Assembly (NCBI GenBank): GCA_903831455.1
Contig: CAIKXV010000185.1
Span: forward strand, 1 to 33,812
From: an uncultured Pseudomonadota bacterium
GTDB taxonomy: Bacteria; Pseudomonadota; Gammaproteobacteria; Burkholderiales; CAIKXV01
DNA length: 33,812 bases
Reading direction: 5' to 3'
In this document: in pieces, positions 15,109 through 20,629 of the stretch
Numbering within the stretch: position 1 is the stretch's first letter
How the letters are laid out: each line of letters opens with the position of its first letter
Translations under genes and position numbers: made by a program
The notes under the pieces: model-generated
Database searches by the model: none
Seen by the model: the letters and a program-made list of their open reading frames with translations, nothing else
What the model was told of the DNA's origin: nothing

Positions 15109-15984
15109 ATGACCGCCATCGTCCAGTACACGCTCTCCGGTCTCGTGATCGGGGGGCTCTATGCCATCGTTGCCCTCGGCTTCTACATCATGTGGTCGGC
15201 GGTGCGCGCGGTGAACTTCGCGCATGGCGACACCCTGATGCTCGGCTCGGTGCTGTCCATCGCGCTGATGTGGGCGGGCGTCCCCCTGATCGTCGGCATC
15301 CCCCTGGCGATCGCCGCCTCCGCCGTGTTCGGGCTGCTCATCGAACGCATCGCGGTGCGCCCGCTCAACCACGGCCCCTCCTCGGTCGGCTGGATGCTGT
15401 CGACGATCGCGATCGGGCTGATGCTCGAGGCGTTCGTCACCGTCACCTTCGGCGCCGACCCGCGTTCGCTGCCCTCCCCGCTCATGGGCACGCCGATCTC
15501 GATCGCGGGCGCGGGCATCTTCCCGCATGAACTGCTGGTGCCGGCGAGCGCGGTCGCGCTGCTTGCCCTGCTCGACGGGTTCTACCGCTCCACCATGCTC
15601 GGCCGCGCCATGCGGGCGATCTCGCAGAAGCCGGTGGCCGCAGGGCTCATGGGCATCGACGTGCGCCGCATGGCGCTCATCTCCTTCGCGGCCGCCTCCG
15701 CCCTGGGTGCCTTCGCGGGCATCCTCGCCGCGCCGATCATCCAGGTCTCGGCGACCATGGGCCTGCTGCTGGGCCTCAAGGGCTTCCTCGTGGCGATCAT
15801 CGCGGGGATGTCGAATGCACGGGGCATCGTGATCACCGGATTCGCCTACGGCGTGCTGGAGCGTTTCATCGAGGGCTTCGGCAACACCGCGCTGCGCGAG
15901 GTGCTCGGCTTCGGCGTGATGATCCTCCTGTTGCTGATGTTCCCGAACGGCCTGTTCGGACAGCGCGAAGTGAACAAGGTATGA
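15109..15984 (+). CDS. livH: HAAT-type ABC transporter permease, LivH family
   Basis: This 291-residue inner-membrane permease has about eight hydrophobic segments. LivH hallmarks include the N-terminal VIGGLYAIVALGFYIMW, NFAHGDTLMLG, and the cytoplasmic loop FYRSTMLGRAMRAISQKPVAA. That loop contains the EAA-like coupling region, followed by LMGIDVRRMA. The ribosome site is not obvious; a hairpin lies directly upstream. The end overlaps the next gene as ATGA (15981-15984), indicating translational coupling with the permease-ATPase fusion. It forms the channel together with the LivM part of that fusion. The symbol denotes the family, not proven leucine transport. Confidence 0.93.
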   Translation: MTAIVQYTLSGLVIGGLYAIVALGFYIMWSAVRAVNFAHGDTLMLGSVLSIALMWAGVPLIVGIPLAIAASAVFGLLIERIAVRPLNHGPSSVGWMLSTIAIGLMLEAFVTVTFGADPRSLPSPLMGTPISIAGAGIFPHELLVPASAVALLALLDGFYRSTMLGRAMRAISQKPVAAGLMGIDVRRMALISFAAASALGAFAGILAAPIIQVSATMGLLLGLKGFLVAIIAGMSNARGIVITGFAYGVLERFIEGFGNTALREVLGFGVMILLLLMFPNGLFGQREVNKV

Positions 15985-17801
15985 AGACGACCCGGTTCAC
16001 GGGCGGCGTGGTGCTCCCGGCGATCGCGTTCGCGGCGGTCCTCGCCCTCATCCCGGCACTGGTCAGCAACAGTTTCCAGTTGCGGGCGGTGATGCTCTTC
16101 CTCGTCTACGCGCTGGTCGCGCTCGGCCTGAACCTGCTGGTCGGCCTGGTGAGCCTCGTCTCCCTCGGCCAGGCCGGCCTGTACGCGCTGGGGGCCTACA
16201 CCGTGGCGATCCTCGCCACCAAGACCGGGGCGGGATTCCTCCCGGCCATGCTGGGCGCGATCGCGGTCACCGCGGCCGCGGGCGTGGCGCTGTCCTACCC
16301 GACGGTGCGGGTGCGCGGCGTCTACCTCGCGGTGGTCACCATCGCCTTCGGCCTGATCGTGCAGAACGTCGCGATCGACTGGCGCGCCCTGACCGGCGGC
16401 ACGCTGGGCATCTCCAACGTCCCGCGCATCGACCTGGGCACCGGGCCGCTGGGCACCACCGGCCTGTACGCGCTGATCGCGGTCACCGCCTTCCTCGGGT
16501 TCGTGCTCCACCACAACCTGATGCACTCCCGGATCGGCCGCGCGATGCGCGCGGTCGCGCAGTCGGAGACCGCATCGCGCGCGCTGGGCATCGATCCGAC
16601 GCGGCAGCGCGTGCTGGCGTTCGTGCTCTCGTCGGTATTCGCGGGCATCGCGGGCGGGCTGTACGCCTACCTCAACCGCTACGTGAATCCGGACACGTTC
16701 AGCTTCTCCGACTCGATCCGCTTCCTGCTGATGGTGATCCTCGGGGGAGCCGGCACCACCTTCGGTCCGCTGATCGGCGCAGGCATCCTGACCTGGATCC
16801 CCAACCTGCTCCAGGCATTCGGAAAATGGCAGCTGTTCGTCTACGGCGCGCTGCTCGCCGGCGTCATCTTTTTCCTCCCCAAGGGCATCGCCGGATCGGC
16901 GCGCGACCTCTGGCTGCGCTGGCGGCGAGGGCGGGTCCAGACGGTCCGCCAGGCGGATGCCTGGCCCAAGCCTTCAGAGGGAATCGATGCGCTGCTCGGC
17001 GTCCGCCCCTCGGTGCGCGGACCGGTGCTGCAGACCCGCGACCTCACCATCCGCTTCGGCGGGCTGTCCGCGGTCTCGCGGGTCTCGGTGGACATCGAAC
17101 GGGCGACCGTGCACGCGATCATCGGCCCCAACGGCGCCGGCAAGACGACGCTGCTCAATGCGCTGTCGGGGTTCTACGCGCCCACCGAGGGACGCGTGAC
17201 GCTGCTGCAGGACGAGGTCGGCGGCCGCTCGAGCGTTCAGATCGCCCGCGGCGGACTCACCCGCACCTTCCAGAACACCGAACTGTTCCCCGAGATGACG
17301 GTCGAGGAGAACGTGCGGGTGGCCTTCCATGCCCGAAGCCGCTGCGGCTTCGTGTCCACGGTACTCCGGTTGCCCGCGTTCAGGGCCGAGGAGCGGCTGC
17401 AGCGGGAACGCGCGGCGCTGCTGCTCGACTACGTGGGGCTTGCCGCCTACCGCGACGAGACGGCCGCCAACCTCGCCTTCGGGCACCAGCGACGACTGGA
17501 GATCGCGCGCGCGCTCGCGCTGTCGCCGGAGATCCTCCTGCTCGACGAGCCCGCGGCCGGCCTCACGCATGCCGAGATCGACGAGCTGATCGCGCTGATC
17601 CGCGACCTGAAGCGGCTCGGCGTCACGGTGGTGCTGGTCGAGCACCACGTGGACATGATCATGTCGGTCTCCGACCACGTGACGGTACTCGACTACGGCG
17701 AAGTGATCGCCTCGGGCGCACCGGGCACGGTGCGCGAAGACCCGAAGGTCATCGAGGCCTACTTCGGCGCCAGCGCCTCGCCTGCGGGGGATGCGGCATG
17801 A
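15981..17801 (+). CDS. Fused LivM-type permease and LivG-type ATPase
   Basis: This single 606-residue chain joins the second permease (residues about 1-310, with hydrophobic segments, YALVALGLNLLVGLVSLVSLG and the coupling loop GRAMRAVAQSETASRALGID) to an ATP-binding domain (about 345-600). The ATPase is complete: Walker A GPNGAGKTT at 382-390, LivG-type signature LAFGHQ at 498-503, Walker B with Asp522-Glu523, and switch His555 (VEHHVD). It overlaps livH and livF by ATGA at both ends, so the three are translationally coupled. Fusion fixes the permease:ATPase ratio. The frame is open through the junction near 16900-17030 with no stop or shift. Confidence 0.95.
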   Translation: MKTTRFTGGVVLPAIAFAAVLALIPALVSNSFQLRAVMLFLVYALVALGLNLLVGLVSLVSLGQAGLYALGAYTVAILATKTGAGFLPAMLGAIAVTAAAGVALSYPTVRVRGVYLAVVTIAFGLIVQNVAIDWRALTGGTLGISNVPRIDLGTGPLGTTGLYALIAVTAFLGFVLHHNLMHSRIGRAMRAVAQSETASRALGIDPTRQRVLAFVLSSVFAGIAGGLYAYLNRYVNPDTFSFSDSIRFLLMVILGGAGTTFGPLIGAGILTWIPNLLQAFGKWQLFVYGALLAGVIFFLPKGIAGSARDLWLRWRRGRVQTVRQADAWPKPSEGIDALLGVRPSVRGPVLQTRDLTIRFGGLSAVSRVSVDIERATVHAIIGPNGAGKTTLLNALSGFYAPTEGRVTLLQDEVGGRSSVQIARGGLTRTFQNTELFPEMTVEENVRVAFHARSRCGFVSTVLRLPAFRAEERLQRERAALLLDYVGLAAYRDETAANLAFGHQRRLEIARALALSPEILLLDEPAAGLTHAEIDELIALIRDLKRLGVTVVLVEHHVDMIMSVSDHVTVLDYGEVIASGAPGTVREDPKVIEAYFGASASPAGDAA

Positions 17802-18541
17802 ACATGACGACGGCGTCCTCCCCGCCTGCGCTGCTGAAGGTCACCGACCTGGGCGTCGCCTACGGCCAGGTCCGCGCGGTGCAGTCGGTCAGCCTGGAGG
17901 TCGGCGCAGGCGAATTCGTCGCGATGATCGGTTCGAACGGCGCCGGGAAATCCTCGACCATGAAGGCGATCGCCGGCGTGCTCGCACCGGTGTCCGGACG
18001 CGTCGAGTTCAACGGCGCGGACGTCACCGGGCAGCCCTCGCACCGACTGGTTCGGCAGGGCCTGGCCATGGTGCCCGAGGGCCGCCAGGTCTTCGCGGAG
18101 CAGACGGTCGAGGACAACCTTCGGCTGGGCGCCTTCGTGTTCTCGCGCACGCCGAAAATGATCGACGAGGCGGTCGACCGCGGCTTCACGCTGTTCCCGC
18201 GACTGGCCGAGCGTCGCGCCCAGGCGGCGGGTTCGCTGTCGGGCGGGGAGCAGCAGATGCTCGCGATGGCCCGCGGCCTCGCTTCGCGACCCCGGCTGCT
18301 GGTCATCGACGAACTGTCCCTGGGACTCGCGCCCCGGGTGCTGGACATGCTGTTCCCGGTCCTGCAGCAACTCAACCGGGACGGGCTCGCGATCCTGCTC
18401 GTCGAACAACTCGCCACGCAGGCGCTCGCCGTATCCCATCGGGCCTACGTGATGGAGACCGGTCGGGTCACCCTGCAGGGCAGCGCCCGCGACCTCGCGC
18501 AGGACCCGGCGGTCCGCCAGGCCTACCTCGGACGACACTGA
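17798..18541 (+). CDS. livF: HAAT-type ABC transporter ATPase, LivF family
   Basis: This 247-residue ATPase is the second nucleotide-binding subunit of the importer. It has Walker A GSNGAGKSS at 45-53, signature LSGGEQ at 147-152 and Walker B Asp171-Glu172 in VIDELSLGLAP. The residue after the Walker B Glu is Leu where LivF proteins usually have Pro. The switch position reads VEQLA with no His, as is usual in LivF. MVPEGRQVF is a LivF hallmark. The start is set by the ATGA overlap with the fusion gene (17798-17801). ATP hydrolysis with the LivG part drives uptake. Confidence 0.94.
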   Translation: MNMTTASSPPALLKVTDLGVAYGQVRAVQSVSLEVGAGEFVAMIGSNGAGKSSTMKAIAGVLAPVSGRVEFNGADVTGQPSHRLVRQGLAMVPEGRQVFAEQTVEDNLRLGAFVFSRTPKMIDEAVDRGFTLFPRLAERRAQAAGSLSGGEQQMLAMARGLASRPRLLVIDELSLGLAPRVLDMLFPVLQQLNRDGLAILLVEQLATQALAVSHRAYVMETGRVTLQGSARDLAQDPAVRQAYLGRH

Positions 18542-19474: not shown

Positions 19475-20629
19475 TTACCCGTCGATCGCCCCCGATACAC
19501 GCTTCCAGAACGCGGTGAACGACCCGCACGGGCGATCCGGATCGTCCGTGAAGCGCGGCACGGGTTCGACCCGCACGCGCGCGGCGGCGAGGGCTTCGCG
19601 ATAGCCCGGATTGAGCGTCGCGCGCGCCGAGATCGTGCAGGCCTGCGGCAAGGCATGCACCAGTTGCGCAAGGTCGCCGCACCACAGCGCATCGGATTCG
19701 CGCAACATCGCCTCCATCACGAACCGCCAGCGCCGCGCGGACCAGGGGAACCGCTGGTGGAACGGGCGATGCAGCACGGCCAGCACGAACGCGCCCCCCG
19801 CGGGCCGTCGCAGCGCCCACGGATGCATCAGGTGCACGTCGCGCCCGCGCAGGTCGGGACATCCGGATGCCTCGGGCGAAGCCTCCGGCGGCTGCGCGAG
19901 CAGCGGCGGCGGTTCGGCCGAGGCAGGGCGGACCCGCTCCGGCCCGGCATCGCCCCCCTGGCGCGCATGCCGGTCGAGATCCTCGTAGCTGCGGTCGATG
20001 AAGGTGCCCGGGCTCGCCAGCATCGGCGCGTAGCGAGCCACGTTGGCCGCATCGAACAGGTAGGGCTTGCTGCTGAAGGTGCCCGCGCACCATTGCCACG
20101 AGAGATGGTTGGATCCCAGGTCGCCGTCGAGCAGGTGGCCGACCATCCAGTCGGCAGCCGCTCGCCAGTGCACCTTGCGCCCATGCACGGCGTACGACGC
20201 GAGCCACATCCGCTGGTGGTTGTGCAGCCAGCCCGTGTCATACAGCGCGCGCACCGAGGCATCGATCGCCGGCACGCCGGTGCAGGCCTGCAGCAGGTCG
20301 TCGGGCACGCGCCCCGAGTAGCGCACGCCCGGCAGGGGCGGGCGCACGTCGGCGAGGATGCCCTCGCCCAGGTGGCGCCACGCATGATGAAAGAACTCGC
20401 GCCAGCCGAACTCGGAGACCAGCTTGTCCTGCGCGCCAAGACGATGGCGCTCGCGCAGGCGGGCGAGCACCTCGGGCAGATCGATCAGGCCGTGCGTGAT
20501 CCACGGCGACAGGCCGGTGACTGCGCCGCGGAGATGGTTGCGGCTTCGCGCATACGCCACCGGATCGACCCGATCGACGCAGGCCAGCGCCGCCTCGCGC
20601 GCAGGCGTCCACTCGCGGGGGCCGGTCAT
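19475..20629 (-). CDS. Photolyase/cryptochrome-like FAD protein with reversed domain order
   Basis: The protein has 384 residues. Residues about 1-205 are a photolyase FAD-binding helical domain: RNHLRGAVTGLSPW (30-43), EFGWREFFHH (73-82), GVPAIDASVR, TGWLHNHQRM (132-141) and DGDLGSNHLSWQW (168-180). By eye, Asn174, Trp178 and Trp155 match E. coli PhrB Asn378, Trp382 and Trp359, while the outer Trp306 position has no Trp. The N-terminal alpha/beta antenna domain that normally comes first is absent. After a Pro/Ala linker (about 225-262), residues about 263-380 resemble that very domain: strand VLAVLH, RRWRFVMEAM, DALWCGDLAQLV, and FTAFWKRV corresponding to FTPFKNAW. So the order appears swapped. 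The ATG at 20629 has GGGGAG before it; the open frame upstream is antisense to the next gene. It is a candidate light-driven DNA repair or blue-light sensor protein; activity unproven. Confidence 0.85.
   Translation of the reverse strand: MTGPREWTPAREAALACVDRVDPVAYARSRNHLRGAVTGLSPWITHGLIDLPEVLARLRERHRLGAQDKLVSEFGWREFFHHAWRHLGEGILADVRPPLPGVRYSGRVPDDLLQACTGVPAIDASVRALYDTGWLHNHQRMWLASYAVHGRKVHWRAAADWMVGHLLDGDLGSNHLSWQWCAGTFSSKPYLFDAANVARYAPMLASPGTFIDRSYEDLDRHARQGGDAGPERVRPASAEPPPLLAQPPEASPEASGCPDLRGRDVHLMHPWALRRPAGGAFVLAVLHRPFHQRFPWSARRWRFVMEAMLRESDALWCGDLAQLVHALPQACTISARATLNPGYREALAAARVRVEPVPRFTDDPDRPCGSFTAFWKRVSGAIDG

Follow-up and report, generated by a model that had tools for sequence, protein, structure and literature searches.

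The window, a stretch of 33,812 nucleotides from an uncultured Pseudomonadota bacterium of the order Burkholderiales, contains a reading frame at 19475-20629 (minus strand) that resembles a photolyase but appears to carry the two photolyase domains in the wrong order. This raises three questions: whether the C-terminal part is truly a photolyase domain, whether the protein repairs DNA or senses light, and how it relates to reversed-order photolyases that are already known.

The protein starts with the FAD domain

The frame translates, from an ATG, into a protein of 384 amino acids; it is open further 5' of the chosen ATG, and homologues start near the same position. The AlphaFold2 model of the full-length protein, predicted from an alignment of 37 sequences, has a mean pLDDT of 93.9 and a pTM of 0.92. 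The gene and its parts are:

19475..20629, minus strand: whole gene of the inverted-order photolyase homologue, 384 amino acids (translation, Pfam FAD_binding_7, AlphaFold2 model, full-length homologues)
19958..20611, minus strand: N-terminal FAD (catalytic) domain, residues about 7-224 (Pfam match to 71-213, structural match of 2-226)
19844..19957, minus strand: Pro/Ala-rich linker of variable length, residues about 225-262 (homologue alignment; mostly coil in the model)
19478..19843, minus strand: C-terminal reduced photolyase alpha/beta (antenna-type) domain, residues 263-384 (structure of this part alone, match to photolyase N-terminal domains, profile chain)

Residues 71-213 match Pfam FAD_binding_7 (E=1.8e-26, profile positions 2-148 of 203), and a sequence search of the PDB found the Anacystis nidulans photolyase (E=4e-21), whose residues 227-430 align with 26-221 of the window protein; thus, the chain starts where the second domain of a normal photolyase starts, exactly as a sequence-only reading of the locus had it. 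In the structural comparison, solved photolyases match model residues 2-226 with their FAD domains, at Z scores of 13.5-17.3. The same reading had the helix after the WQW motif missing, and this needs correction: GTFIDRSYEDL (208-218) pairs with GEFIRQWLPEL of E. coli PhrB in the alignment and a helix is predicted at 215-224, so the helix is present in shortened form, and it is the segment following it in canonical enzymes that is absent, leaving the FAD domain with a shortened end. The layout is not that of a canonical class I enzyme, as Pfam finds no PF00875 match in the protein and the translation has nothing in front of the FAD domain. The protein is also not a DASH cryptochrome by TIGR02765 (70.2 bits, below the curated cut-off of 317), and a PHROGs search returned only a family of unknown function.

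As a side observation, a Trypanosoma brucei mitoribosome assembly protein (7pub_Ff / 7pua_Ff) came up with the FAD-domain model at Z 16.4 and with the alpha/beta model at Z 6.2; it is a ribosome assembly factor with a photolyase-like fold.

The C-terminal domain is a photolyase alpha/beta domain

Folded alone, residues 250-384 form a five-stranded alpha/beta domain (pLDDT 92.4). A residue-level structural aligner placed residues 12-135 of this model onto residues about 1-164, the N-terminal domain, of photolyases and cryptochromes with the sequence order kept; almost every one of the top 50 structural matches is such a protein (Z 5.4-8.7 over 96-124 residues), and the alignment includes the final FTAFWKRV helix. 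Foldseek on this domain found nothing below E 0.001 (best 0.011), and the claim of homology therefore rests on the residue-level aligner and on a chain of sequence profiles, which were compared because Z scores below 8 are weak on their own. A profile of the window branch and its Cytophagales relatives matches a profile of the Deinococcus and split antenna domains described below with E=1.1e-12 over 129 columns, and the latter matches the canonical N-terminal domains with E=8.8e-12 over 141 columns, while column-shuffled controls of both comparisons gave E values of 0.08 or worse. Within the intermediate group, the C-terminal part of the Deinococcus member and its split partner reach E=0.001 and E=2.3e-4 against PF00875, both below the curated cut-off.

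The C-terminal domain could instead be an unrelated Rossmann-like addition that resembles the photolyase domain through a common fold only. The missing direct PF00875 match, the weak Foldseek values and the non-significant direct comparison between the window-branch profile and the canonical N-terminal domains (E=0.14) would fit such an origin, but it is already contradicted by the profile chain, in which the intermediates link both ends, as well as by the dominance of photolyases and cryptochromes among the structural matches, and we regard it as very improbable. The C-terminal part is homologous to the photolyase alpha/beta domain and stands in reversed order, which confirms what the sequence-only reading had seen by eye; its profile-level link is direct for the FAD half and runs only through intermediates for the C-terminal half. 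That reading had left the choice between a circular permutation and a domain swap. The structural matches and the profile chain show a swap of whole domains: no cut inside either domain was seen.

The C-terminal domains of the window branch and of the Cytophagales members are only 15-18% identical, and the role of this domain may therefore differ between the branches. The Burkholderiales branch has conserved C-terminal motifs of its own, HPWxL and PFHxxFPWSxxRW.

Active-site and electron-transfer residues

The residues of the window branch were compared with E. coli PhrB in an alignment of 46 reversed-order and 16 canonical sequences; counts for the window branch refer to 16 Burkholderiales members. 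The numbering of the PhrB sequence used agrees with the known tryptophan positions. We take E274 and W277 to be contacts of the cyclobutane pyrimidine dimer (CPD), W384 to stack on the CPD and N378 to face N5 of FAD; W382, W359 and W306 are the inner, middle and outer tryptophan of the electron-transfer chain. The equivalent positions are:

20399..20413, minus strand: E73, W76 and R77, equivalent to PhrB E274, W277 and R278 (PhrB alignment; invariant in the window branch)
20318..20320, minus strand: Y104 at the W306 (outer tryptophan) site (all 16 Burkholderiales members have Tyr)
20216..20224, minus strand: H136, N137 and H138, with N341 kept and R342 replaced by His, a signature of the reversed-order clade (alignment)
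20165..20167, minus strand: W155, the middle tryptophan W359 (PhrB alignment)
20108..20110, minus strand: N174, equivalent to N378 (PhrB alignment)
20090..20098, minus strand: W178, Q179 and W180, with the inner tryptophan W382 and W384 (PhrB alignment)

Conserved throughout the window branch are E274, W277, N341, D372, N378, D374, W384, W359 and W382; M345 is conserved as well, with Leu in one of the 16 members. At the position of R342, 45 of the 46 reversed-order sequences have His; the 16 canonical ones all have Arg. A tryptophan pair (W178 and W155) is thus retained in place of the triad, with Y104 for W306, and the earlier statement that the outer tryptophan is lost and the inner two are kept stands.

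Distribution and phylogeny

Full-length homologues with conserved domain order are present at about 50 Burkholderiales and about 24 Cytophagales loci. Of 300 genomes sampled from the order, 38 have the window type, several of these as split FAD-only forms. The idea that it replaces DASH cryptochromes was rejected: none of the 15 genomes with a DASH protein above cut-off is among the 38 of 300, with about 1.9 expected, which is not significant. The same domain order is found in a related alphaproteobacterial set, including Ruegeria, Asticcacaulis and Novosphingobium, and relatives of this alphaproteobacterial type are also present in other genomes of the window's genus.

In two trees of the FAD domain, all reversed-order proteins form one clade against the canonical photolyases (support 100/99 and 100/100). 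Within it, the alphaproteobacterial set is a branch of its own (100/98-99); a second branch holds the window branch, the Cytophagales, Deinococcus and the split forms (96/90 and 99/94 in the two trees). Cytophagales and window branch group together in one tree (96/83), and this fork is open in the other. The named reference members of the inverted-topology NewPHLs (A8LJA9, M7YZC8, Q2N8F4, B6IPR5) are all alphaproteobacterial, and the alphaproteobacterial branch is therefore presumptively NewPHL. The window protein lies in the same reversed-order clade and outside this presumptive NewPHL branch.

Genomes L008-L015 (other genomes of the window's genus; L011 belongs to another family in the order) have a presumptive NewPHL-branch member with a WRW motif instead of the window type found in the window genome. 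In L007, a further genome of this genus, the window type is present as a partial copy.

Genomic neighbourhood

A canonical-order photolyase gene adjoins the family member at 16 Burkholderiales loci, nearly always downstream and on the same strand, and at 13 Cytophagales loci; a DPRP-type photolyase gene adjoins it at 16 Cytophagales loci. In the window itself, no other photolyase gene lies beside 19475-20629. Other contigs of the window genome carry a class I-like photolyase, another canonical-order gene of the photolyase family and a DPRP-like gene, and the protein could therefore be redundant or have changed its role. On contig C237 of the window genome (L112 and L152), a canonical-order homologue has CQMQ for WQW, and the gene right after it is a DPRP-like photolyase gene. 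Ahead of the region, the translated frames at 15981-18541 of the window look like genes for an ABC transporter of the branched-chain amino-acid type, with no apparent link to the photolyase gene.

Repair or sensing

We consider it likely that the protein is a two-domain photolyase of inverted topology that splits CPDs and, jointly with this, that its branch, which includes the Cytophagales members, is distinct from both the presumptive NewPHLs and the Fe-S members within the one reversed-order clade. The catalytic FAD domain comes first, followed by the linker and by a small alpha/beta domain that would pack on the FAD domain. The protein would bind FAD, and its photoreduction would run via W178 and W155, perhaps with Y104 as the outer donor; an electron passed on from FADH- would split the CPD. 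If the characterised NewPHLs are a guide, the likely substrate is DNA in single strands or loops. The alpha/beta domain probably closes off the pocket of the FAD; whether or not it carries an antenna pigment, it may do so in either state.

The sequence-only reading had suggested that the protein could be a sensor rather than a repair enzyme, and a cryptochrome-like blue-light sensor that has lost repair and signals through its C-terminal domain would agree with the loss of the outer tryptophan, the exchange of R342 for His, the private C-terminal motifs of the Burkholderiales branch and the other photolyases of the host genome. Points against the repair reading are the His at R342 in nearly the whole reversed-order clade, the low identity of the C-terminal domains between the branches and the place of the gene in the window, away from other photolyase genes. 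Still, E274, W277, N341 and W384 do not vary within the branch, nor does N378, which is of the repair type; photolyase genes are the conserved neighbours (those of canonical order at 16 Burkholderiales and 13 Cytophagales loci), and the characterised inverted relatives are repair enzymes that likewise have only a tryptophan pair. As the CPD- and FAD-contacting residues that were checked are kept, except for R342, and photolyase genes adjoin, CPD repair, perhaps in single strands, appears likelier than sensing from the residue pattern; the case for a sensor is weakened and we judge it unlikely. Less probable again is that the protein repairs a different lesion, for instance as a (6-4) photolyase: Phr4 and Phr6 have been suggested to be (6-4) photolyases from their Fe-S cysteines (PMC9426592), and prokaryotic (6-4) photolyases are among the best structural matches of the C-terminal domain, but matches with Z scores within 1 of each other are to be read as tied, the Fe-S cysteine motif (C..C..C) is present in none of the 88 collected ORFs, and the active site follows the pattern of CPD photolyases, E..W..N..M..WQW.

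Two-gene relatives

Seven members of the clade consist of the FAD domain only: one of Deinococcus sp. QL22 (L106), one of another proteobacterium (L136) and five of Burkholderiales genomes (L147-L151). Each of the seven is immediately followed, on the same strand, by a second gene that encodes the antenna domain. The two genes overlap by 4 bases in L106, L147, L149 and L150 and by 1 base in L151; the antenna gene starts 8 bases past the stop of the FAD gene in L148 and within a few bases of it in L136. Two examples are:

L147, 1015-1848 and 1845-2237: split pair of a Burkholderiales genome, FAD gene then antenna gene
L106, 2399-3172 and 3169-3690: split pair on a Deinococcus sp. QL22 plasmid, the second gene annotated as hypothetical protein only

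At least three of the seven split loci have a canonical photolyase frame after the pair, and the C..C..C motif is present in four of the five Burkholderiales split forms as well as in the Deinococcus forms. On the FAD-domain tree the split forms do not make up one group, and joining or splitting has therefore occurred more than once.

We tentatively propose, at somewhat less than even confidence, that the reversed-order photolyases derive from a two-gene enzyme, FAD gene followed by antenna gene, which was joined or separated repeatedly; the window branch would be a fused form and the 'short photolyase-like' proteins (SPLs) one half of a two-subunit enzyme. Given the downstream antenna gene in all seven FAD-only members, the SPLs, proposed as one-domain ancestors, may indeed be half-enzymes. 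The split pairs thereby bear on the open question of whether photolyases and cryptochromes descend from short proteins with a single domain: if the proposal is true, the second half of the SPLs sat unnoticed in the next gene and the argument for a one-domain ancestor weakens.

Comparison with known systems

NewPHLs of D. shibae and M. mesophilicum were reportedly described by Emmerich et al. 2020 (NAR 48:12845), and SPLs are said to have been described by Xu et al. 2021. The reversed layout itself is already published, and the present data are not a discovery of domain reversal, which the sequence-only reading did not know to be described: NewPHLs 'exhibit an inverted domain topology' (PMC13274461) and are inverted enzymes that repair CPDs in single strands and have no more than a pair of tryptophans (PMC13274461, PMC8948257, PMC9426592), the pair being reported for the D. 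shibae protein (PMC8948257). A 'reverse domain order' with Fe-S cysteines was published in 2022 for Phr4/Phr5 of marine Synechococcus and Phr6 of Cyanobium, alongside Phr7, which consists of an FAD domain and a 'Z-domain' (PMC9426592). Nothing relevant was found in the literature on circular permutation of photolyases, the reversed order being published as NewPHL and Phr6. The window branch was not found described in the literature searched; the primary NewPHL and SPL papers may include it.

With the NewPHLs, the window protein shares the FAD domain at the start, the small alpha/beta domain at the end and the tryptophan pair. The presumptive NewPHL set (370-420 amino acids) also has N-H for N341-R342, whereas it differs in having WRW for the WQW of the window branch and no aromatic residue at the W306 site, where the window branch has Tyr. 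Phr4/Phr5/Phr6 have the reverse order in common with the window family, either fused (Phr6) or as two adjacent genes (Phr4 and Phr5), but carry the Fe-S cysteines that the window branch does not have; in our comparison this type is represented by the Deinococcus and Burkholderiales forms with the C..C..C motif, standing in for the cyanobacterial sequences. The split pairs found here extend the cyanobacterial two-gene case of Phr4/Phr5. The SPLs, in contrast to the window protein with its C-terminal alpha/beta domain, are described as lacking this domain and as proposed ancestors of the photolyase/cryptochrome family (PMC9649867).

Both domains of the window protein are homologous to those of PhrB, a class I CPD photolyase, and the active-site residues are common to both proteins; the window protein differs in the reversed order, in a smaller alpha/beta domain, in an FAD domain with a shortened end and in having Tyr and His in place of W306 and R342. 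To the known systems these data add a Burkholderiales and Cytophagales branch whose reversed-order photolyases are fused and have no Fe-S cysteines; its Burkholderiales members have a Tyr at the site of the outer electron donor.
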